Source: Actinomarinicola tropica (lineage in GTDB: Bacteria > Actinomycetota > Acidimicrobiia > Acidimicrobiales > SKKL01). Taken from it: a DNA stretch of 64,000 nucleotides. This document shows, piece after piece, positions 39,489 through 51,624 of this stretch (position 1 is the stretch's first letter; each line of letters begins with the position of its first letter). The stretch spans positions 1,651,189-1,715,188 of the forward strand of contig NZ_CP045851.1 in NCBI RefSeq assembly GCF_009650215.1, written 5' to 3'. The position numbers were made by a program, and so were the translations under genes. The notes beneath the pieces are model-generated. The model was not told the DNA's origin and did not search any database. It worked only from the letters and a program-made list of their open reading frames with translations.

Positions 39489-40613
39489 GTGAGCGAGCAG
39501 AGCGGTTCGTGGCAGCCAGACCCCTTCGGCCGCCACCAGTACCGGTGGTGGAACGGTGCCGAGTGGACCGACCAGGTCTCGAACGACGGCAACGTCAGCA
39601 GCGACCCGCCCGAGGCCGGCGGTGCCGCGGGCGGTGAGACCACCAGCGAGACACCGGCGACCTCCGAGGGCCCTGTCGCCCAGGACCCGGAGCCGACCCA
39701 GACCGGGCCCGGGTGGGGGCAGGACGCCACCACCTCCATGCCGGCTGCGGGCGCGACCTACGAGTCCACCACCACGACGACGCCCGCCACCGATGCGCCG
39801 AAGAAGAGCTCGTCCAACGTGCCGGCGCTCGTCATCGGCGGCATCCTGCTCCTCGCCCTGATCGGTGCGGGCGCGTACCTGCTCTTCTCCGGCGGCGACG
39901 ACGAGCGGTCCCGCGAGGACCTCATCGCCGCGGTGCGCGACGACCTCGACCTGTCCGGCTCGGAGGCGTCCTGCGTCGTCGACGAGGTCGGCGAGGAGCG
40001 CCTCGACGGCATCCTCGACGCCGGTTCCGACGTCAGCGACGGCGATCGCGACGCGCTGAACGCCGCGGTCGGCGAGTGCACCGGCGCCGGTGAGGAGACC
40101 ACCGACACCACCGAGGACACCACCGAGACCACCGAGACGACCGAGGACGACGACACCGACACCGACACCGATGTCGACGAGCTCCCCGATCCCTTCGTCG
40201 ACGCCTTCGTCGAGACGATGATGTCCGAGCTCGACCTCACCGAGGCGCAGGCGAGCTGCTTCGCCGAGGAGTTCTTCGCCATCGAGGGTCTCGACATCCA
40301 GGGCATGTCGGAGGACCCTGACGCCGCGATGTCCGATCCGGCGCTGTTCTCGGCGATGTTCGACATCTTCGAGACCTGCGACATCGACCCGATGTCGCTG
40401 TCCGGCGGGGCCGGCGGTTCTGGCGGCACCGGGGAGGACGGCGAGCTGTCCGGTATCCTCGAGGGCCAGACCTACGGCGACAACCCGATCCTCGACGAGC
40501 TCTGGGACGAGTGCGAGGACGGCGACCTCGAGGCGTGCAACGACCTCTACATGCACTCGGAGTTCGGCAGCGAGTACGAGGCGTTCGGCCTGAACGACGG
40601 CGAGCTGCCGTGA
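39489..40613 (+). CDS. DUF2510 membrane protein with acidic tail, paralog 1
   Basis: A 374-residue protein. The N-terminal DUF2510 motif (WQPDPFGRHQYRWWNGAEWTDQV) is followed by a disordered Thr/Ser/Pro linker. One membrane helix at about 115-135 (VPALVIGGILLLALIGAGAYLLF) comes next, then an acidic C-terminal part with a TTETTEDTT repeat. The end reads GQTYGDNPILDELWDECEDGD and stops soon after EYEAFG. The second paralog continues 15-20 residues further with TCGGR. Function unknown. The GTG start follows GGAGG. Confidence 0.85.
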   Translation: MSEQSGSWQPDPFGRHQYRWWNGAEWTDQVSNDGNVSSDPPEAGGAAGGETTSETPATSEGPVAQDPEPTQTGPGWGQDATTSMPAAGATYESTTTTTPATDAPKKSSSNVPALVIGGILLLALIGAGAYLLFSGGDDERSREDLIAAVRDDLDLSGSEASCVVDEVGEERLDGILDAGSDVSDGDRDALNAAVGECTGAGEETTDTTEDTTETTETTEDDDTDTDTDVDELPDPFVDAFVETMMSELDLTEAQASCFAEEFFAIEGLDIQGMSEDPDAAMSDPALFSAMFDIFETCDIDPMSLSGGAGGSGGTGEDGELSGILEGQTYGDNPILDELWDECEDGDLEACNDLYMHSEFGSEYEAFGLNDGELP

Positions 40614-41341
40614 CCGCGAGCGACGCCGCGTGGAAGCCGGACCCCTCGGGTCGCCACCAGTACCGCTACTGGGACGGCTCGGCGTGGACCGACCAGGTCT
40701 CCGACGACGGCGCGATCTCGACGGACCCGATGGACAGCGCGGCCGCCGGTCCGACGGCGTCGACGGGGCCCGCCGGGTTCGCCGCGGCGTCGGCGCCCCC
40801 GCCCGGTGCCACCGGCGCACCGGGCGGCGGTGCCAGCAGCAAGACCCCGCTGATCATCGGCGGCCTGGTCCTCGTGGTGCTCCTCGGGGTGGCCGCGTTC
40901 TTCCTCACCCGCGACGACGACGTCGACCAGGGTGAGCTCTCGGAGGCGTTCCAGGCCCAGGGCATCGACGAAGAGGCTGCGGATTGCCTCGCGGGCGAGC
41001 TGGCCGACGAGTTCAGCGAGAGCCGGGCCGAGGAGCTGAGCGAGGGCGGCGAGATGACCGAGGCGGAGACCGCCGCCGTGTTCTCCGCCATCTCCGAGTG
41101 CGGCGGCTTCGGCGACCTGGACCTCGATCCCGACGACATCGCGTCGGAAGAGGGCGAGACCTACGGCGACAACCCGACGCTCGACGCCCTCTGGGACGCC
41201 TGCGAGGGCGGCGACGGTCAGGCCTGTGACGACCTCTACTTCCAGTCGCCGCTCGGCTCGGAGTACGAGGAGTTCGGCGACACCTGCGGTGGCCGCTTCG
41301 AGGCGGGCGAGGTCCTCTGCTCGATGGAGGAGCTCGACTGA
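40610..41341 (+). CDS. DUF2510 membrane protein, paralog 2
   Basis: A 243-residue paralog of the preceding protein, its GTG overlapping the upstream TGA (GTGA). It has WKPDPSGRHQYRYWDGSAWTDQV, then a glycine/proline linker, one membrane helix (about 79-98) and an acidic domain. The C-terminus carries the conserved block GETYGDNPTLDALWDACEGG and ends in TCGGRFEAG. That block is widespread in actinobacterial DUF2510 and protease-inhibitor-like proteins. The soluble domain is probably outside the cell. Function unknown. Confidence 0.85.
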   Translation: MTASDAAWKPDPSGRHQYRYWDGSAWTDQVSDDGAISTDPMDSAAAGPTASTGPAGFAAASAPPPGATGAPGGGASSKTPLIIGGLVLVVLLGVAAFFLTRDDDVDQGELSEAFQAQGIDEEAADCLAGELADEFSESRAEELSEGGEMTEAETAAVFSAISECGGFGDLDLDPDDIASEEGETYGDNPTLDALWDACEGGDGQACDDLYFQSPLGSEYEEFGDTCGGRFEAGEVLCSMEELD

Positions 41342-41414: not shown

Positions 41415-42341
41415 TCAGCCGAGGCGGGGCCAGCTGCGGCGGGTGCGCCGGCGGCCGGGGTCCCGCTCGCCGAGCGCCCAGGCCCGCCGCCACCCGGCAG
41501 CGTCGGGACCGGCGAGCGAGGGCGTGGTGCCGGCGGCCGCACGGCGGCGGGCGGTCCACCAGTCGGTGGTCGCCTCGTCGGCCAGCTCGGCGACGGCCCG
41601 CTCCAGCTCGGCGGCCAGCCGCCGGGTGTCGGACCCGGTCCCGGGAACGATCGGTGCACCGAACGTGACCGTCGTGGCCGCACGCCGGGGACGGTTCCGC
41701 CCCTTCGGCAGCACCCGGTCGGTCCCGGCGATGTGCACGGGCACGATCGGGACGCCGCAGCGGATCGCGAGGTAGGCGGCGCCGCCGCGGAACTCCTGCG
41801 CCCACCCGTCGGGGCTGCGCCCGCCCTCCGGGAAGATGAGGAGGCTCCAGCCGTCGTCGATCAGCTCCGCGGCGCGGTCGGCGCTGTCGCGGGAGATCTT
41901 GGTCCGCTCGATCGGCACGGCGTTCAGCGTCAGCGCGGAGAAGGTGCCGCTCACCCGGTTGCCGAAGAAGTAGTCGGCCGCCGCCCCCACGAAGGTGCGG
42001 TGCCGCCACGGCTCGGGGATCGAGGTGAGCATCAGCGGGGTGTCGACGTGGCTGTGGTGGTTGGCGGCGAAGATCACCGGACCCTCGAGCCCGTCGAGCC
42101 GGTCGGTGCCACGCCGCTCCGGTGGTGCGAGCACGGCGACCGTGGGCCGCATGACCAGCTCGAGAGCGGCCAACCGGGCGACCCGTGACGGGTAGCGGCG
42201 CGCCCACTCCGTGGGGAAGTCGTTGCCGGTGCGGCGGCGCTCCGGCGGCGGCTCGACCCCGCGGGGGACGTGGGGCGCCCGGAACGGGAACGGCACCCGG
42301 CGCACGAACCGTGCGGGGGAGAGCGCGGACCGGGCGCTCAC
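41415..42341 (-). CDS. lysophospholipid acyltransferase family protein (PlsC-like), last gene of the lipid operon
   Basis: A 308-residue acyltransferase. The HX4D catalytic motif is NHHSHVD (about 94-100) and the second block is LIFPEGGRSPDG. The family transfers an acyl group from acyl-CoA or acyl-ACP onto a lysolipid or alcohol. It has an arginine/proline-rich N-terminus and a basic C-terminal tail. The GTG start overlaps the upstream DUF2088 gene as GTGA. Placement suggests it esterifies a product of the reductase and dehydrogenase encoded upstream. Confidence 0.9.
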   Translation of the reverse strand: MSARSALSPARFVRRVPFPFRAPHVPRGVEPPPERRRTGNDFPTEWARRYPSRVARLAALELVMRPTVAVLAPPERRGTDRLDGLEGPVIFAANHHSHVDTPLMLTSIPEPWRHRTFVGAAADYFFGNRVSGTFSALTLNAVPIERTKISRDSADRAAELIDDGWSLLIFPEGGRSPDGWAQEFRGGAAYLAIRCGVPIVPVHIAGTDRVLPKGRNRPRRAATTVTFGAPIVPGTGSDTRRLAAELERAVAELADEATTDWWTARRRAAAGTTPSLAGPDAAGWRRAWALGERDPGRRRTRRSWPRLG

Positions 42342-43948
42342 GTCACGTCGGCCATGAGGATCGGCGGGTTGTGGAAGTGCGTGATCGTCGGCTGGGGGCC
42401 GACGACGTCGGTGGCCATCTCCAGCGCGTCCTGGAGCGTGGAGGCCGGGCTGAACCCGAGCCGTCGCGTGGCCCGTACGTCGCCGCCGACGATGATGACC
42501 CGCCCGAGGTGCTCCAGCGCGTGGGCGCACCAGTACCACATGTAGAACGGGTGGACGCCGTGGTAGGCGTACGAGGTGCGGTACAGGTGCCGGTACCACT
42601 CGTCCTCGGCGTACTGCTTCTCGTACCTCGCCTCCATCTCCACCGGGTCGGTGGTGTCGGCGAGGACCTGCTCGAAGAAGTCGATGTAGCTCGGGTGGTG
42701 GACGGGGTGGAACTCCCACGGCGTGGGGTGGCTCATGATGAGCACGCCGCCCTCGCGCACCAGCGGCCGGCCCTTGTAGAGGTTGAAGAAGTACCCGAGC
42801 CCGAGGCACGCCACGAGGATCGGGTTCATGATCGAGTTGACGTTGTAGGGCCCGATGTACGGGAGCCCCATCGTGAGCACGTCGGTCTGGCCCTCCACCG
42901 GCACGAGGTGCTGGCGGTAGACGTTCTCGGTGGTCACCCTGTGGACCGCCTCGACCTCGCCGGCCTGCACCGAGGTGAGCTCGTAGGGGGCCTCCCACGA
43001 GTGGAAGATCTGGCGCCGGCGTGCCGCGGGCAGCCCCTTGAGGCCGGCCTGCATGCCGATGAACGTGGCCCGGTCCCGCGCCGTCCACTCCCACTCCCGC
43101 TTCTGGAGGAAGGCGAGCGGGCCGGTGCGCCCGAACGTGTTGTTGTTGATCGTCGTCTCGATCTGGAAGATCTTCACGCCGGCGTCGCGGATGACCTCGC
43201 CCTGGCGCCAGTTGCTCTTGTGCAGCTCCGAGCTGGTCTGGTCCATGAACGACCGGGACTTGGTCATCGTCGCCGGGTTGTGGTGGACCTTCACGCCGGT
43301 GTAGCCGGCCAGGCCGGTCGCGGTGCTCTTGTGCCCGCCGTCCATCGAGACGATGTTGATGTTCACGTACACGACGAGGTCGCTCTCGGCGGCCCGCCGG
43401 CTCATCTGGACGTCCTCGCCGTGGCGGGTCTGGCCGAGCACGACCATGCCGTCGGGGTCCTCGGCGTCGTGGTTGTAGAGCAGTCCGCGTGGCGCGAAGG
43501 CGTCGTAGACGCGGTCGCCCACGGCGTGGCGCAGCTCGTCCTCGGTCATCCGGCGGTGGAGGGCGAGGGCGGCGATGATGTGGACGTCGTCGACCCCCGC
43601 GGCGGCGGCGAGGTCGAGCACCTGCTCGATGATCCGCTGGCGCACGTCGGGGCGCTGCATCTTCGGCAGCGGCAGCGACACGTCGTCGAAGGCGATCGTG
43701 AGCTTCATGCCCGGGAACAGCAGCGCGGGCAGGGGCTCGGACTCGCCCTCGGGGTGGTGGAGGGCGTGGTGGATCGCGGCCTCGGGATCGTCGATGCCCG
43801 GGAGCGGTTCGGCGGGGTACAGCACCCGGGAGCGGCCCGGCGGCAGCTTCTCCAGGCGGAACCCCTCACCGTGGTGGAACAGGATCGGCGGGGTCGACCG
43901 GTCGACGTCGAGGACGAAGCCGGGACGGGGGCTGCGGCGGCTGCTCAC
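42338..43948 (-). CDS. DUF2088 / lactate racemase (LarA)-like protein
   Basis: A 536-residue protein, larger than LarA (about 420). The N-terminal half matches LarA: FDDVSLPLP (LarA DDxTRPxP region, about 87-95), LHRRMTEDELRHAVGD (about 130-145), and GGHKSTATGLAG (about 204-215). Lys207 is at the place where LarA binds its nickel-pincer cofactor covalently. LarA interconverts alpha-hydroxy acids. No larB, larC or larE cofactor gene is near, so cofactor use is unproven. The C-terminal third is aromatic-rich and unfamiliar. It overlaps both neighbours by 4 bases. Confidence 0.82.
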   Translation of the reverse strand: MSSRRSPRPGFVLDVDRSTPPILFHHGEGFRLEKLPPGRSRVLYPAEPLPGIDDPEAAIHHALHHPEGESEPLPALLFPGMKLTIAFDDVSLPLPKMQRPDVRQRIIEQVLDLAAAAGVDDVHIIAALALHRRMTEDELRHAVGDRVYDAFAPRGLLYNHDAEDPDGMVVLGQTRHGEDVQMSRRAAESDLVVYVNINIVSMDGGHKSTATGLAGYTGVKVHHNPATMTKSRSFMDQTSSELHKSNWRQGEVIRDAGVKIFQIETTINNNTFGRTGPLAFLQKREWEWTARDRATFIGMQAGLKGLPAARRRQIFHSWEAPYELTSVQAGEVEAVHRVTTENVYRQHLVPVEGQTDVLTMGLPYIGPYNVNSIMNPILVACLGLGYFFNLYKGRPLVREGGVLIMSHPTPWEFHPVHHPSYIDFFEQVLADTTDPVEMEARYEKQYAEDEWYRHLYRTSYAYHGVHPFYMWYWCAHALEHLGRVIIVGGDVRATRRLGFSPASTLQDALEMATDVVGPQPTITHFHNPPILMADVT

Positions 43949-45159
43949 AGGCGGTGGCGCTCCTTCTCGTCGCGCAGGTCGAACGCGACCTTGACCGCGC
44001 CGCGGGGACCCGCGGCGGCGGCGTGCTCGATGGCGTCGCGGTAGCGCGACAGGGGATAGGTGGCCGAGACGAGCCGGCCGAGGTCGGCCGAGCGGACGAG
44101 CTCGAAGGCCAGGTCGAACGTGCGGGCTCGGCGAGGTGCGCCGCCGTCGGGGTCGGGGACCTCCTCGGTGCCGTAGGCGTAGGCGCCGACGAGCTCGATC
44201 TCGCGGTGCCACAGGCCGGTGAGGTCGACGGTGACGGGGCCGGGCATGCCGACCACGACCACGCGGCCCTTCGGCCGGACCGCGGCCATGGCGTCGGCGA
44301 GGCTCTCGGCCGAGCCCACGCAGTCGATCACCACGTCGGCGCCGCCGGTGAGGCGGTCGATCGCGCCGTCGCCCACGGCGAAGCTGCCGGTGAGGCGGCG
44401 CACGCCCCGCAGCCACTCGGTGGGCTCGACGACCACGTCGGCACCGAGGAGCGCAGCGAGGTTGCGCTGCTCCGGGTACCGGGCGGAGGCCAGGATCGTG
44501 GCGCTCGGGGCGAACCGGCGCAGCGCGGCGACGGTGAGCAGGCCGAGGGTGCCGGCGCCGAGCACCGCGACGGTGCCGCCGGCCGGCACCCCGGCCCGCA
44601 GCGCGGCGTGCACGGCGCAGGCGGTCGGCTCGACCATGACAGCGGCCTCGTCCTCCATGTCGTCGGGGACGGGGTGCAGCTGCGACTCGTGGGCGACCAT
44701 CAGCGTCGACCACCCGCCACCGGTGTCGCAGCAGAAGCCGGTCTGGAGACCGGGCTCGATGCGGCCGAGGGTGATGTGCTCGCAGTTGCCGAGGTCGCCT
44801 CGCGCGCACCACTCGCACGGCGGGTCGATGCCGCGCGTGGCGCAGCCGAGGACCGGCTCGACCACGACGCGCCGGCCGTCGTCGAGGTCGCCGACGACCT
44901 CGTGGCCGGGGACGAACGGGAACGAGACGATGGGCTCGAAGTAGCGGCTGCTGCGCCCGTCGACGGTCGCCAGGTCGGATCCGCAGATGCCGGCGAGGCG
45001 GGGCCGCACTCGCACCCAGCCGGGACCGGGCAGCTCGGGCGGGTCGACGTCGACCAGGTCGAGGGGGCCGGGGCCGGCGCCGCGGCCGCTGACGACGCTG
45101 CCGGCGAGGCGAGCCGCGGCGTAGCGGGGCAGGTTCCGGGAGAAGCGCAGGGCCTTCAT
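43945..45159 (-). CDS. zinc-dependent alcohol dehydrogenase family protein
   Basis: A 404-residue medium-chain dehydrogenase. Catalytic zinc ligands are in GICGSDLA and PGHEVVG; structural zinc cysteines appear in PPCEWCARGDLGNCEH. The Rossmann fold has VAVLGAGTLGLL. It uses NAD(P)H to interconvert an alcohol and an aldehyde or ketone. It sits second in a coupled operon, after an acyl-CoA reductase fusion (ATGA overlap) and before the LarA-like protein (GTGA overlap). A role on long-chain alcohols or aldehydes is inferred from that context. Confidence 0.9.
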   Translation of the reverse strand: MKALRFSRNLPRYAAARLAGSVVSGRGAGPGPLDLVDVDPPELPGPGWVRVRPRLAGICGSDLATVDGRSSRYFEPIVSFPFVPGHEVVGDLDDGRRVVVEPVLGCATRGIDPPCEWCARGDLGNCEHITLGRIEPGLQTGFCCDTGGGWSTLMVAHESQLHPVPDDMEDEAAVMVEPTACAVHAALRAGVPAGGTVAVLGAGTLGLLTVAALRRFAPSATILASARYPEQRNLAALLGADVVVEPTEWLRGVRRLTGSFAVGDGAIDRLTGGADVVIDCVGSAESLADAMAAVRPKGRVVVVGMPGPVTVDLTGLWHREIELVGAYAYGTEEVPDPDGGAPRRARTFDLAFELVRSADLGRLVSATYPLSRYRDAIEHAAAAGPRGAVKVAFDLRDEKERHRL

Positions 45160-47495
45160 CGGCTGCCGACCCTGGTCGGCGCGATCGGGAGGACCGGGTG
45201 CACGCCCTTGGCCGCCTTCGGGAAGTTCTCGACCAGCCAGCCCCGCTTGCGGGCCAGCGACGCCAGGCGGGTCTCCGGGTTGACCGCGACGGGGAAGCCG
45301 ACGGCCTCGAGCATCGGGAGGTCGCTCGCCGAGTCGGCGTAGGCGACGCTCTCGGCCAGGTCGAGGCCCTCCGCGGCGGCGTACTCGGCCATCGCCTGCG
45401 CCCGCGCCTCGCCCGTGGGCGGGACCCGCACCAGCTCGCCGGTGTACCGGCCGTTCCGCACCGACATCTCGGCGGCGACGATGTCGTCGAAGAGGGGTCG
45501 CAGCGGCTCGACGACGAAGTCGAGCGCACCGGTGATGAGCACCGTGCGGTGGCCGAGCGCCCGGTGCTCCCGCACCCGGCGGATGGCGGCGGGGAACGAC
45601 TTGGCGAGGATCAGGGCGCTGAGCAGCTCCGCAGAGTCCTCGGCCATCTGCTCCACGGGTGCGCCCCGGTAGCGCCGATAGAAGTAGCGGAGGAAGTCGG
45701 TGCGGTCCTGGGCGTCGAGCCGCAGCAGCCGGGGGGCCTCGCGCACCAGGCGGGCCGCGAACCGGGCCTTGTCCTCCGAGGGCAGCCGGCGGGTGGCGAG
45801 CCACGCGTAGGAGGTGACGACGTTCGAGGCGATCAGCGTGTTCTCGAGGTCGAAGGCCGCGAGGTGCCGGTCGGGGGACAGGACCTGGCGCCGCAGGCGG
45901 TCGGTGCGAGTCGGGCCCTTCTTGGCCCCGGGGGTCGTCTTGACACGGGCGTGCTCGACGACCGACGGCAGGTGGATCGTGGTGGCGTAGACGTCCCAAT
46001 CGACGACCCGAGGGTCGAACGTGAAGCGCTCCCGGTCGGCGTCGTCGAGGAGCCCCCACATGTCCATGAGGCGGTCGACCGTGTACACGGCTTCGCACTC
46101 GGCGTAGGCGCCGTACAGCTCCACGTAGGTGAGGGCGCGCTCGACGTCCTCGCGCCGGCTCTCGAGGGTGGCGGAGAGCTCGGCCTGGGTGCCCCGCAGG
46201 GGCAGCTTCTCGAGGGTGCTCTCGGCCTTCGTGATCGCGACCTTGGCCCGGCTCAGCTGGCGCTCGACCTTGCCGCGCACCGGGAACGTCCACTCGGGCA
46301 CGGCGATCGGCTGGCCCGAGTTGTCGAAGATCGGGTGCTCGGTGAAGTACGCCTCGATCATGTCGATGAGCTTGCGGTAGCGCAGCGGGTTCGAGGAGCC
46401 CGACGCGACCTGGACGATCGGGGGCGTCTGCTCGGGTGGGAGCGCGGCGGCGGCGACGATGGCGGCGACGACGAGGTCGACCGGGATGACGTCGACGATG
46501 CCCTCCGGAACGCCGGGGAACTGGGTGAGGAGCCCGCGGGCGTAGGAGATGATCACCGGCTCGGCCATGCGGAAGCCGCGGATCCAGCCGGGCCGCGGCT
46601 CGGCGACCGCCGACTCGATGATCGAGGGGCGGACGACCGTGACGGGGATGGCGCCCTTCGTCTCCGAGAGCGCGACCTCGCCGAGGGCCTTGGTGTACGA
46701 GTAGACGTCCGGGAACCCGAGCGAGCGGGCGCGGGAGCGCCCGGCCTCCACCATCCGGTCGTTGACCCACCGCGTCCGCTGCTGCTCGGCCTTGGCCGAC
46801 AGCAGCGGGATGCCCGCGGCGCCGAGCTCGCCGCGCGCCTCGTCGGCGAAGCGGGCGAGCATCTCCGGCGTGCGGCTCTCGGCCTCGAGGTCGCTGCGGG
46901 TCCGGCGGGCGGCGTCGACCTCGCGGCGCCACGGGACGTCCACGAAGAACGGCGACTCGGCGACCGGCTGCTCGTGCGCCTCGCCCCGGTGGTTGCCGGC
47001 GACGTAGCAGGTGGAGACGGCGACGAGGTGCGGCGTGACGCCCAGATCGCGGAGCGTCGCGGCGATGCGGGTGGGACCGAGCAGGTTGACCTCGACCGCC
47101 GAGTCGAGCGGAGAGTCGAACGAGACCGTGGCGGCCGAGTGCACCACGACGTCGCAGGAGGCGAGCGCGGCGCGGCCGTCGTCGTCGAGACCGAGGCCGT
47201 CGCTGCCCACGTCACCCCGGACGACCGTGACGCGCCGGTCGACCATGGCGTCGAACTCGCTGCTGCCGAGCTCGTCGCGCAGGCGGTCGAACGCGTCGTT
47301 CTTGAAGATCTCCCGGCGCGCCCGCTGCTCGACCGTGCGCATCCGCCCCGGGCGCAGCAGGAGGACGAGCTCGCAGCCCGGGGCGCTGCGGAGCAGGCGC
47401 TCGACGAGCGCCGTGCCGAGGAAGCCGGTCGCGCCGGTGATGGCGACGCGTCGCCCGTCGAGGTGCTCAGGGATCACGGTGGTCCTGTCTACCAT
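45156..47495 (-). CDS. SDR fatty acyl-CoA reductase / HAD-IB fusion, first gene of the lipid operon
   Basis: A 779-residue fusion. The N-terminal extended SDR domain has GATGFLG (21-27) for NAD(P)H and the catalytic Tyr265-Lys269 (YSYTK), followed by a sterile-like FAR_C region (about 370-500). This resembles alcohol-forming fatty acyl-CoA reductases. The C-terminal HAD-IB domain (about 544-760) has DLENT where DxDxT is expected, so the second acid is Glu. The start may be ATG 47495 or GTG 47477. A palindrome at 47488-47503 spans the ATG, which favours the GTG. Confidence 0.87.
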   Translation of the reverse strand: MVDRTTVIPEHLDGRRVAITGATGFLGTALVERLLRSAPGCELVLLLRPGRMRTVEQRARREIFKNDAFDRLRDELGSSEFDAMVDRRVTVVRGDVGSDGLGLDDDGRAALASCDVVVHSAATVSFDSPLDSAVEVNLLGPTRIAATLRDLGVTPHLVAVSTCYVAGNHRGEAHEQPVAESPFFVDVPWRREVDAARRTRSDLEAESRTPEMLARFADEARGELGAAGIPLLSAKAEQQRTRWVNDRMVEAGRSRARSLGFPDVYSYTKALGEVALSETKGAIPVTVVRPSIIESAVAEPRPGWIRGFRMAEPVIISYARGLLTQFPGVPEGIVDVIPVDLVVAAIVAAAALPPEQTPPIVQVASGSSNPLRYRKLIDMIEAYFTEHPIFDNSGQPIAVPEWTFPVRGKVERQLSRAKVAITKAESTLEKLPLRGTQAELSATLESRREDVERALTYVELYGAYAECEAVYTVDRLMDMWGLLDDADRERFTFDPRVVDWDVYATTIHLPSVVEHARVKTTPGAKKGPTRTDRLRRQVLSPDRHLAAFDLENTLIASNVVTSYAWLATRRLPSEDKARFAARLVREAPRLLRLDAQDRTDFLRYFYRRYRGAPVEQMAEDSAELLSALILAKSFPAAIRRVREHRALGHRTVLITGALDFVVEPLRPLFDDIVAAEMSVRNGRYTGELVRVPPTGEARAQAMAEYAAAEGLDLAESVAYADSASDLPMLEAVGFPVAVNPETRLASLARKRGWLVENFPKAAKGVHPVLPIAPTRVGSR

Positions 47496-47503
47496 TCGGT
47501 AGA
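47488..47503. promoter_or_regulatory. candidate TetR operator in the lipid operon/TetR divergent region
   Basis: TCTACCATTCGGTAGA has perfect 6-bp arms around four bases. The core TACC-N4-GGTA is typical of TetR-family operators in actinobacteria. It lies 30 bases upstream of the TetR start and covers one possible start of the acyl-CoA reductase gene. A bound repressor could block both directions. Confidence 0.65.
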
Positions 47504-47533
47504 GATGCGGAGCGACGACCTGGGGGCGACGAG

Positions 47534-48145
47534 GTGACGGCGACGGCGACCGGTGCCCCGCGGACGTCCGAGCGCGTGCTCGACGCCGCGATCGAGTCGT
47601 TCGGCACCCGAGGCTACGACGCCACGTCGCTCGACGCGCTGGCCGCCGAGCTCGGCATCCGCAAGCAGACGATCCTCTACTGGTTCCCCTCGAAGGAGGC
47701 CCTGCTCGGCGCGGTGATCGACGGGTGCGCCACCGAGCTCTCCGAGGCCCTCGAGTCCGCCCTCGCCCGTGCGGGCCGGGGTTTCGACCGGGTCGAGGCC
47801 ATCGTGCGGGCGGTGTTCCGGCTCGCCCTGCGACGCCCGGCCCTGCTCGGGCTCCTGCGGGAGGTCAGCCGGCTGGGCCCGCCGTGGTCGACCCGCCTCA
47901 CCGACCAGCTCGACCCGCTCGTCGACCGGGCACGCGCCTTCCTCGACGGCGAGATGGCGGCGGGGACGATGCGCCGCACCGACTCGCGGCTGCTGCTCCT
48001 GTCGGCGTACTCGACCGTCATCGGCGTGGCCACCGAGGCCGAGGTGCAGCGGGCCCTCGGCGTCGACCCGAGCCTGCGCTCCATGGTCGTCCGCCGCCGC
48101 GAGCTCGTCGCCTTCCTCCGCAGCGCCCTCGCCCCCACGCGCTGA
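47534..48145 (+). CDS. TetR family transcriptional regulator
   Basis: A 203-residue regulator with the TetR helix-turn-helix at about 10-57 (RVLDAAIESFGTRGYDATSLDALAAELGIRKQTILYWF). A helical ligand domain follows. It diverges from the four-gene lipid operon, and a palindromic operator candidate lies in the gap, so it probably represses that operon and itself. A hydrophobic ligand such as an acyl-CoA is plausible but not shown. The GTG start has weak upstream purines (GAG). Confidence 0.9.
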   Translation: MTATATGAPRTSERVLDAAIESFGTRGYDATSLDALAAELGIRKQTILYWFPSKEALLGAVIDGCATELSEALESALARAGRGFDRVEAIVRAVFRLALRRPALLGLLREVSRLGPPWSTRLTDQLDPLVDRARAFLDGEMAAGTMRRTDSRLLLLSAYSTVIGVATEAEVQRALGVDPSLRSMVVRRRELVAFLRSALAPTR

Positions 48146-49115: not shown

Positions 49116-50204
49116 TCAGTGGTCGGTGCGGCGGTGGGCGGTGCGGCGGGCGTGGCGCTCGATCGCCAGGGCCACGAGCTCGTCGATCAGCTGGGCGTAG
49201 GGGAGACCCGATGCCTCCCAGAGCTTCGGGTACATCGAGATGGGCGTGAAGCCGGGGATCGTGTTGATCTCGTTCAGGAGCAGGCCGCGACCGTCCTCCT
49301 CGTAGAAGAAGTCGACCCGTGCCATGCCCTCGGCGCGCAGGGCGGCGAACGACCGGCGGGCCAGGTCGGCCAGCTCGGCGGCCACGTCGTCGGGCAGCTC
49401 GGCCGGGATCACCAGCTCGGCCGCACCGTCGAGGTACTTGTCGGCGTAGTCGTAGAACTCCGCACCGGGTCGGATCTCGCCCGGCACGGAGACGCGCAGC
49501 TCGGTGTTGCCGAGGACCGCCACCTCGATCTCCCGCCCCTCGACGTGCTCCTCGACGACGATCCACTCGTCGTAGCCGGCGGCGAGGGCCAGCGCGTCGC
49601 GCAGCTCCTCGAGGTCGTGCGCCTTGCTGACGCCGACCGAGGAACCGAGGTTGGCGGGCTTCACGAAGACCGGCAGCCCCAGGGCGTCCTCGATGGCGGC
49701 GGGCGTGGTGTCGTCGACGTCGGTGTCCCGGAGCGTGAGCCAGCGGCACTGCGGGATGCCGGCGTGCTCGATGACCTCCTTCGCCTTGGCCTTGTCCATC
49801 GCCAGGGCGGACCCGAGGACGCCGGCGCCGACGTAGGGCACGCCGGCCAGCTCGAGCATCCCCTGCACGGTGCCGTCCTCGCCGAAGGGCCCGTGCAGCA
49901 GCGGGAACACCACCACCTGCTGGCCCGACGCTGACGCGACCGCAGGCACCGGGTCGACGGCGGCGCCGGCGACGTCCAACCCGGTGGTCAGCGCGGCGGG
50001 CTCGTCGAGCGCCGCGAGTGCCGCACCGGCGTCGAGCCACCGCCCGTCTCGCGTGATGCCGATCGGCACGACGTCGTAGCGGGACCGGTCCACGGCCCGC
50101 AGGACGTGCACCGCGGTGACGCGGCTCACGTCGTGCTCGGCGGACTGGCCGCCGAAGAGGACGACGAGCCGGACGGGTGGATCGGTCGGAGACGAGGGTG
50201 TCAT
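49116..50204 (-). CDS. ddl: D-alanine--D-alanine ligase
   Basis: A 362-residue ATP-grasp ligase, which joins two D-alanines for the peptidoglycan stem. Motifs: VLFGGQSAEHDVS near the N-terminus, PLLHGPFGEDGTVQGMLEL, the ATP-binding KPANLGSSVGVSKA, and the metal-binding LLNEINTIPGFTPISMYPK at the C-terminus. An ATG at 50204 matches family length; upstream sequence in frame is antisense to murF. It diverges from murF over 88 bases, linking the enzymes that make and add D-Ala-D-Ala. Confidence 0.96.
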   Translation of the reverse strand: MTPSSPTDPPVRLVVLFGGQSAEHDVSRVTAVHVLRAVDRSRYDVVPIGITRDGRWLDAGAALAALDEPAALTTGLDVAGAAVDPVPAVASASGQQVVVFPLLHGPFGEDGTVQGMLELAGVPYVGAGVLGSALAMDKAKAKEVIEHAGIPQCRWLTLRDTDVDDTTPAAIEDALGLPVFVKPANLGSSVGVSKAHDLEELRDALALAAGYDEWIVVEEHVEGREIEVAVLGNTELRVSVPGEIRPGAEFYDYADKYLDGAAELVIPAELPDDVAAELADLARRSFAALRAEGMARVDFFYEEDGRGLLLNEINTIPGFTPISMYPKLWEASGLPYAQLIDELVALAIERHARRTAHRRTDH

Positions 50205-50292
50205 CGGTCCCGCACGGTACTGCGGGCCCGTGAGGTCTCGGAGCGGCGCACGGTCGGCGATGATGGGACGCCGTCCCGACCCGAGGAGACCC

Positions 50293-51624
50293 GTGCGGTT
50301 CACCGCAGACGACATCGCGCAGCGCACCGGCGGCGAGGTCATCGGCGACCCCTCGGTCGAGGTCGTCGGCGCCACCCAGGACTCGCGGACGGTCGCTCCC
50401 GGCCAGCTCTTCGTGCCGCTCGTCGCCGGCCGTGACGGGCACGAGTTCATCCCCGTGGCCGTCGAGCGGGGGGCGACGGCGTACCTCGCCTCGGACCGGG
50501 CCCGGGTGGTCGACGGGGCCACCGCGATCGCCGTCGAGGACACCCAGGTGGCCCTGGTCGACCTCGGTCGCGCCGCGCGCCACCGGCTCGACGGCGCCGT
50601 CGTGGGCATCACCGGATCGGTCGGCAAGACGACGGTGAAGGACCTCGCCCGCGGGGTCCTCGGGGCCGCGGCCCCCACCCACGCCAGCGCCGCGAGCTTC
50701 AACAACGAGATCGGCGTGCCCCTCACGCTCCTCGGCACGCCCGACGGCACCCGGCACGTCGTCGTCGAGATGGGCGCTCGCGGCATCGGCCACATCGCCG
50801 AGCTGTGCGCCATCGCCCACCCCACCGTCGGTGTCGTCACCCGGGTGGCGATGGCCCACAGCGAGCTCTTCGGCACCATCGAGGACATCGCTCGCGGCAA
50901 GGGCGAGATGGTTGAGCAGCTGCCCGCCGACGGCACGGCGGTCCTGAACGCCGGCGACCAGCGGGTGGCAGCGATGGCCGACCGCACCTCGGCCCGGGTG
51001 CTCACCTTCGGGCTCGGCGTGGGCGACGTGCGGGCGACGACGATGGACGTCGCGGCCGACCTGCGCCTGCGCGTGCTGCTCGAGACCCCGTGGGGCGCCA
51101 TCGAGGTGGAGCCTGCGGCGCGTGGCCCGCACAACGCCGAGAACGCGGCCGCTGCGGCGGCCATCGGCCTCGGGGTGGGCATGGACCTCGCCGACGTGGC
51201 CACGGGGCTGGCCGCGGCGGAGATGTCGCCGCTGCGGATGGCCATCACGACCTCGCGCTCGGGCGTGACGATCCTCGACGACTCCTACAACGCCAACCCC
51301 ACCTCGATGCGGGCGGCGCTCGACGCGCTCGCGCACCTCCCGGCCGAGCGCCGCGTCGCGGTCGTGGGGCTGATGGCCGAGCTCGGGCCCGAGTCCGACG
51401 CCGAGCACGAGGCCGTCGCCGCGCTGGCCGAGGAGCTCGGCGTCGAGCTGATCGCCGTCGACTGCCCCGAGTACCGCGCCGATGCGCACGGTGGTCGCGC
51501 CGTGCACGACATCGACGGGGCGCTCGACCTGCTCGACGGGGCCGGGACGGGCACCGCCGTGCTCGCGAAGGGTTCTCGCGTCGCCGGCCTCGATCGCCTC
51601 GTGGCGGCGCTCGCCGACCGCTGA
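50293..51624 (+). CDS. murF: UDP-N-acetylmuramoyl-tripeptide--D-alanyl-D-alanine ligase
   Basis: A 443-residue Mur ligase adding D-Ala-D-Ala to UDP-MurNAc-tripeptide. The N-terminal domain has TQDSRTVAPGQLFVPL. The central P-loop is GITGSVGKTTVKD, followed by SFNNEIGVPLTLL, the MurF fingerprint. The third domain has DDSYNANPTSMRAALDAL. The GTG at 50293 follows GAGGAG at about 5 bases. An upstream open stretch to 50116 is not used, since homology begins at RFTADDIAQ. Confidence 0.96.
   Translation: MRFTADDIAQRTGGEVIGDPSVEVVGATQDSRTVAPGQLFVPLVAGRDGHEFIPVAVERGATAYLASDRARVVDGATAIAVEDTQVALVDLGRAARHRLDGAVVGITGSVGKTTVKDLARGVLGAAAPTHASAASFNNEIGVPLTLLGTPDGTRHVVVEMGARGIGHIAELCAIAHPTVGVVTRVAMAHSELFGTIEDIARGKGEMVEQLPADGTAVLNAGDQRVAAMADRTSARVLTFGLGVGDVRATTMDVAADLRLRVLLETPWGAIEVEPAARGPHNAENAAAAAAIGLGVGMDLADVATGLAAAEMSPLRMAITTSRSGVTILDDSYNANPTSMRAALDALAHLPAERRVAVVGLMAELGPESDAEHEAVAALAEELGVELIAVDCPEYRADAHGGRAVHDIDGALDLLDGAGTGTAVLAKGSRVAGLDRLVAALADR

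Follow-up and report, generated by a model that had tools for sequence, protein, structure and literature searches.

An operon of lipid-type enzymes in Actinomarinicola tropica encodes a LarA-like protein predicted to lack a standard racemase site

What does a relative of lactate racemase do among a putative acyl-CoA reductase, an alcohol dehydrogenase and an acyltransferase? The question is raised by a locus in a 64,000-nucleotide stretch of the Actinomarinicola tropica genome (C1:1651189-1715188, hereafter the window), in which a LarA-like protein is encoded within a chain of overlapping genes. Our reading, to which we give a probability of about 50%, is that a TetR-controlled operon makes or remodels a lipid and that the LarA-like protein performs nickel-pincer nucleotide (NPN) hydride chemistry on a substrate that has no free carboxylate. 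The parts of the locus, in window coordinates, are the following.

42338..43948, minus strand: LarA-like protein, NCBIfam NF052592 (LarAH14/15/16), 536 aa from GTG 43948 (profile, alignment, fold)
45156..47495, minus strand: SDR domain (fatty-acyl-CoA-reductase-like, PF07993) fused to a HAD-IB phosphatase-like domain (PF12710), 779 aa (Pfam, NCBIfam); SDR-HAD below
43945..45159, minus strand: Zn-dependent medium-chain alcohol dehydrogenase, 404 aa, optional operon member (Pfam, neighbour counts); Zn-ADH below
41415..42341, minus strand: PlsC/AGPAT-like acyltransferase, 308 aa (Pfam); PlsC below
47534..48145, plus strand: divergent TetR-family regulator, 203 aa (Pfam, neighbour counts)
47488..47503, no strand assigned: predicted TetR operator, palindrome TCTACCATTCGGTAGA, overlapping the SDR-HAD start codon (motif scan)

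The three junctions on the minus strand are exact 4-base overlaps. They read ATGA where the 3' end of the SDR-HAD gene (47495-45156) overlaps the Zn-ADH start (45159), GTGA where the Zn-ADH end overlaps the LarA-like start (43948), and GTGA where the LarA-like end overlaps the acyltransferase start (42341), the last gene ending at 41415. The TetR gene diverges from the SDR-HAD gene across 38 bases. A first-pass annotation of this DNA had described four genes in 4-base overlaps with a divergent TetR, and direct reading of the sequence bore this out. Its family labels agree with Pfam for all five proteins scanned (NAD_binding_4 plus HAD; ADH_N plus ADH_zinc_N; Lar_N; Acyltransferase; TetR_N), and its proposal that lipid-type genes and a LarA-family member form one coupled operon is supported by the overlaps, these domains and the conserved adjacency reported below.

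The LarA-like protein matched Lar_N (PF09861) at 120.7 bits (cut-off 23.3) and, over its full length, the model NF052592, "NPN-dependent hydroxyacid isomerase, LarAH14/15/16 family", at 888.9 bits (cut-off 740). Its score against the lactate racemase model NF033504 was 63.5 bits, below the cut-off of 460. It is the single Lar_N protein of its genome, and 110 of the 131 genomes of the order with a Lar_N match likewise carry just one. A search of plasmid records returned only a remote L. plantarum larA.

Active-site residues were aligned to the annotated L. plantarum larA product (L184) and are numbered on P0001, the LarA-like protein without the residue encoded by its GTG start; positions in the full protein are one higher. 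D69, R72, H101, K180 and H196 of the reference align with D88, L91, H130, K206 and H222, and its second catalytic histidine (H170) falls in a 4-residue deletion of the LarA-like protein. With unknown residues removed, 176 LarA-like sequences came to 168 distinct ones, which were divided by score into families A (152), B (8) and C (8). D88, H130 and H222 occur in 152/152 distinct family-A sequences and K206 in 151, with one gap, while position 91, the carboxylate-binding arginine in LarA, is Leu, Ile or Cys in all 152. Two asparagines border the deletion, N195 (invariant in family A) and N197 (Asn in 151/152); N197 lies at the deletion edge in one alignment, and HMMER pairs it with Asn185 of LarA_Sp. 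Family A has 79–82 residues, and a conserved KREWEW motif, in the stretch from 263 to 345, as against 73 residues in 7/8 family-B sequences, and 31 in 5/8 and 77 in the other three of family C.

Proton-coupled hydride transfer in LarA involves two histidines that take turns as acid and base, and in LarA_Ip the residue Arg73 binds the carboxylate of the substrate as well as the phosphate of NPN (PMC12611868). By alignment, the LarA-like protein keeps the cofactor lysine, the nickel histidine, the first catalytic histidine and the ribose-binding aspartate. With the loop that carries the second histidine missing and the carboxylate-binding arginine turned into Leu, Ile or Cys, it probably does not racemise hydroxy acids by standard hydride transfer. 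In LarA, the retained lysine and histidines are Lys184, His200 and H108, and the lost pair is H174 and Arg75. The first-pass annotation had presented LarA as just such a racemase, which probably does not hold for this protein, and had made its case depend in part on the LarA active-site residues, of which the second histidine and the arginine are lost and the cofactor-binding residues are retained. Groups 14 and 15 of the LarA homologues lack His174 and group 17 has Asn (section 2.1 of PMC12611868), and the LarA-like protein fits the group 14/15 description. Homologues without H174 or K298 may carry out another hydride-mediated reaction (PMC7583248, Desguin 2020), and those without the second histidine have been suggested to be one-way racemases or as enzymes of very different substrates, none having been found (PMC12611868). 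The name of family NF052592 claims an isomerase, whereas Frankia LarAH14, the sole member of groups 14/15/16 in the activity table (Table 1 of PMC7583248, Desguin 2020), showed none of the seven activities.

From 76 sequences of <82% identity, 71 were used in the structure alignment (L170, L171, L172, L175 and L178, among the most divergent, were left out), and the resulting AF2 model had a predicted local distance difference test score of 95.3 and a predicted template modelling score of 0.93. It has the two-domain LarA fold, with LarA- or Mar2-type chains in the eleven top rows (Z 27.1–40.1, 385–453 residues). The best structural match was 9q3k (Foldseek E 2.4e-33; Z 40.1, root-mean-square deviation 2.2 Å, 453 residues aligned), followed by 9q3j (Z 36.4) and 9eia (Z 30.7), with lactate racemase 5huq at Z 28.9. 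The model is thus closest to the single-catalytic-histidine structures of 2025, in which two such homologues with a sugar-like gene context and an unknown ligand were solved (Gatreddi 2025, PMC12611868). These, LarA_Sp and LarA_Bw (PDB 9q2u/9q3k and 9q3j), are the closest solved proteins in both sequence and fold, and share with the LarA-like protein one catalytic histidine, the cofactor lysine and the nickel-binding histidine. Counted along the alignment, Tyr307 and His401 of LarA_Sp correspond to Y367 and H465, but Lys76 pairs with Leu91 and His306 with a proline, and from 263 to 345 the LarA-like protein is longer by about 50 residues. The gene context of LarA_Sp and LarA_Bw is sugar-type (PMC12611868), unlike the lipid-type operon here. 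With lactate racemase LarA (5huq) and malate racemase Mar2 the protein shares the fold and the cofactor-anchoring lysine and histidine, but not the second catalytic histidine or the carboxylate-binding arginine.

Genes for making the cofactor were sought in the same genome. The first-pass annotation had found larB, larC and larE absent, which is correct within the window, but all three lie elsewhere in the genome and score over the cut-off: larB (C1:3464686-3465294) adjoins larC (C1:3463508-3464614), and larE (C1:3221750-3222508) stands apart. A genome lacking pincer-cofactor genes, which the annotation had named as one half of a refuting case (the other being lost active-site residues), is therefore not what is seen, and a pincer cofactor is plausible for the LarA-like protein because these genes are present. 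Over the order, the LarA-like gene and LarC occurred together in 122 genomes, the LarA-like gene only in 11, LarC only in 5 and neither in 10 (Fisher p 7e-7, relatedness ignored; one LarC-less genome, G142, was taken by inference). Eleven genomes with a LarA-like gene lacked larB or larC over the cut-off, six of them larE too.

To ask whether the operon is a chance arrangement is to ask how often it recurs. The best 80 of 579 stretches related to P0001 in named genomes come mostly from Acidimicrobiales or Acidimicrobiia and encode proteins 74–89% identical to it; neighbours were counted only at loci with enough flanking DNA (76, 57 or 49 of the 80). PlsC lay downstream of the LarA-like gene at 76/76 testable loci and SDR-HAD upstream at 57/57. 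Zn-ADH stood directly between SDR-HAD and the LarA-like gene at 18/57 (or 19, counting L114 with its 547-base gap), and a divergent TetR was found at 38/49. The conserved unit, SDR-HAD, LarA-like and PlsC, is smaller than the four genes first described, since Zn-ADH and the divergent TetR are kept at only those fractions of loci; the adjacency proposed for four families stands for three of them, with Zn-ADH not constant.

More variation was seen at a further 24 loci, drawn from the order and from elsewhere in the phylum. SDR-HAD was within 1.8 kb upstream at 18 of 22 testable loci, at 1.9–3.7 kb in three more and absent in one; PlsC was directly downstream at 18/24 and an ADH between at 16/22. 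The TetR was divergent at 6/22, and three others had a TetR in line downstream. At 16 loci with more distant LarA-like proteins the SDR-HAD, PlsC or TetR arrangement was absent, which confines the observed lipid context to family A; at L176, one of these distant loci, the opposite strand holds a frame with weak likeness to HAD and PlsC (68 and 50 bits). Another LarA group has a separate context: at 5/6 f81 loci (L163, L164, L165, L166, L168) a family III CoA-transferase, again a CoA-thioester enzyme, is encoded directly upstream of the LarA-like gene. The f81 proteins belong to family B, are 39–43% identical where aligned and likewise lack the arginine.

Of 148 genomes of the order, 133 matched the LarAH14/15/16 model (127 of them above its cut-off), as did 170 of 396 genomes sampled across the phylum (86 above it). 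The LarA-like gene and an SDR-HAD orthologue co-occurred in 131 of the 148 genomes, with the LarA-like gene only in 2, SDR-HAD only in 2 and neither in 13 (Fisher p 7e-15, a test that, like the LarC one, ignores relatedness). The orthologue threshold, E better than 1e-30, was chosen after seeing the table, and the two-by-two tables were tallied by eye from lists. When the count was limited to the 115 genomes with completeness of 90% or more and contamination of no more than 5%, 107 had both, none SDR-HAD only, one the LarA-like gene only and seven neither; the seven without a LarA-like gene belong to four families.

The partner enzymes look active by their conserved residues. In SDR-HAD, the SDR YxxxK motif and the HAD nucleophile aspartate are present in 86/86 aligned sequences, and HAD motif I reads DxE in 76/86 and DxD in 9. 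Zn-ADH keeps the catalytic-zinc Cys and His in 93/94 (one gap) and the structural-zinc Cys in 90/94. The N, H and D of NHx4D and the E and R of FPEGxR are present in PlsC in 148/148 aligned sequences.

Control by the divergent TetR was examined through its predicted operator at the 49 of 80 loci in which both TetR and SDR-HAD were found. The palindrome TACC[AG]NN[TC]GGTA was present in the TetR/SDR-HAD intergenic region at 39 of these, leaving ten without a site, against 52 occurrences in the remaining 884,445 bases of these loci. In its own genome there was one exact TCTACCRNNYGGTAGA site (window 47488-47503) and two more with one mismatch; a control pattern gave 1 + 1. Because the palindrome is concentrated in the intergenic region and its own genome holds a single exact site, the regulator is probably dedicated to the operon.

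How might these parts work together? The SDR domain would most likely yield an aldehyde or alcohol by reducing an acyl-CoA; the HAD domain fused to it would remove a phosphate, and the PlsC-like protein would add an acyl chain, with the optional Zn-ADH supplying an extra alcohol/carbonyl step. The LarA-like protein, of LarAH14/15 type, would most likely carry NPN made by LarB, LarC and LarE encoded elsewhere and use it to shift a hydride in a lipid intermediate that bears a hydroxy or carbonyl group. Its substrate is probably without a free carboxylate (a thioester, aldehyde or ketol), because there is no arginine for one, and this is also the simplest common reading of the operon and the f81 CoA-transferase contexts. 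Redox isomerisation or one-sided hydride transfer is favoured over racemisation, since only one general base (H130) is recognisable and the carboxylate arginine is gone; the protein should take up and return a hydride without inverting a hydroxy acid in the usual way. As for the product, an alkyl or hydroxyalkyl lipid is our guess. The nearest lipid system in parts is the elb operon of myxobacteria, which also has a fatty-acyl-CoA-reductase-like (FAR-like) domain, a HAD protein and an AGPAT-like acyltransferase in one operon (PMC9131029). The HAD domain is fused to the reductase in the present operon, which differs further in having the LarA-like protein, and ElbD carries acyl-CoA synthetase and acyl carrier protein (ACP) domains (PMC9131029) for which the five proteins here have no corresponding Pfam domain. 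Among the literature matches listed there was no link between LarAH14/15 and a lipid operon, although Table S1 of PMC7583248, on contexts per LarAH group, may tabulate it.

Several observations weigh against this reading. DxE at HAD motif I is unusual for a phosphatase of this class and might alter the chemistry of that domain. The acyl-CoA reductase role is assigned from profile matches only. N195 and N197 might still take part in catalysis, as Asn185 may in LarA_Sp, and a one-way racemase or epimerase has been proposed for single-histidine homologues (PMC12611868). PlsC does not adjoin the LarA-like gene at six sampled f77 loci (L150–L153, L158, L159). The trait belongs to this order and to scattered other groups of the phylum, because no LarA-like match was obtained in the eight genomes that the listing gives for the other orders of the class (206 non-matching genomes of the phylum sample fall outside that listing). 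Six of the 133 carriers (G017, G019, G026, G034, G108, G118; two of one genus, two others of one family) have no larB, larC or larE over the cut-off, and in the five where the loci were looked at (not G026) D88, H130, K206 and H222 are kept, so that cofactor dependence is at most probable. The missing genes may reflect assembly gaps, cofactor uptake or true independence; the six assemblies run to tens to hundreds of contigs, in which genes may be missed. Five loci from these genomes (L143–L146 and L148, from G034, G118, G019, G108 and G017) have an intact LarA-like gene with its operon neighbours. The gene order, the overlaps, their conservation, the residues, the predicted fold, the operator motif and the presence of larB, larC and larE are observed; the cofactor loading, the substrate, the order of steps and the product, and with them the pathway as a whole, we infer.

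Four other explanations were weighed. The LarA-like protein could be a 2-hydroxy-acid epimerase, acting for instance on a 2-hydroxy fatty acid or the corresponding thioester, if another group took the place of the second histidine or the reaction ran one way, and the operon would then lead to 2-hydroxylated lipids or diols. Active LarA homologues do act on 2-hydroxy acids, many newly found substrates having hydrophobic side chains (PMC7583248, PMC11770544), and both the NCBI family name and the one-way racemases suggested for single-histidine homologues (PMC12611868) point the same way; yet the missing loop, the arginine replaced in all 152 sequences and the seven negative assays of Frankia LarAH14 (PMC7583248) make this unlikely. 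Alkyl (ether) glycerolipids made in an elb-like manner, with the LarA-like protein accessory or filling an unassigned step, would suit the FAR-like SDR, HAD and PlsC parts, which have counterparts in ElbD (FAR-like and acyltransferase) and ElbB (HAD); elb also includes ElbC, a protein without an assigned function (PMC9131029). This we regard as a somewhat more doubtful account, as the five proteins scanned contain no acyl-CoA synthetase, ACP or AGPS-type domain (AGPS was not searched genome-wide) and no lipid analysis of a carrier is among the literature matches listed.

It is improbable that the LarA-like protein works without NPN, as a cofactor-free enzyme or a scaffold. The six carriers without larB, larC and larE favour such a role, but the lysine that anchors the cofactor, the nickel histidine and the ribose-binding aspartate persist, also in the five of them looked at, larC presence tracks the LarA-like gene overall, and the negative assemblies are fragmented. 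Wax esters, in which a fatty alcohol made by the reductase would be esterified by the acyltransferase, had been suggested in the first-pass annotation. A fatty-acyl-CoA-reductase-like SDR and an acyltransferase are indeed present, but the acyltransferase matches no WS/DGAT family, being of the PlsC type (PF01553), and the idea leaves the LarA-like protein without a role. The sole match in the genome to the WS/DGAT model (TIGR02946) scores 207.3 bits, below the cut-off of 309.95, and is far from the operon and unlinked to it (C1:1308891-1310189). The wax-ester idea is left with no specific support and is highly improbable.

Beyond the operon, two tandem paralogous proteins are encoded immediately downstream (39489-41341, plus strand; open reading frame translations). 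Each begins with an N-terminal W-x-P-D-P-x-G-R-H-Q-Y-R-[WY]-W, and their C-terminal tails are alike, with TYGDNP..LD.LWD.CE.GD..AC.DLY. On the other side, frames around genes at 49119-51621, which from their translations we take to be D-Ala-D-Ala-ligase-like and MurF-like, found a match in 51/80 and 43/80 of the named loci, and a wider gene-order block beside the operon is often kept.

To return to the proposed hydride chemistry on a lipid intermediate lacking a free carboxylate, the operon gives a single-histidine LarA group a tight context of acyl-CoA-reductase-like, phosphatase-like and acyltransferase partners with an apparently dedicated regulator. More generally, and only tentatively, the LarAH14/15 proteins may be NPN enzymes that are not racemases and that shift a hydride within or between lipid carbonyl and alcohol intermediates (thioester, aldehyde or ketol), in a pathway present in most genomes of the order. 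If this is true, the LarA-like protein would be, to our knowledge, the first NPN enzyme to act on a substrate other than a hydroxy carboxylate and the first in lipid synthesis. Nickel-pincer chemistry would then extend from hydroxy acids to lipids, in an order in which 133 of the 148 genomes sampled carry the gene.

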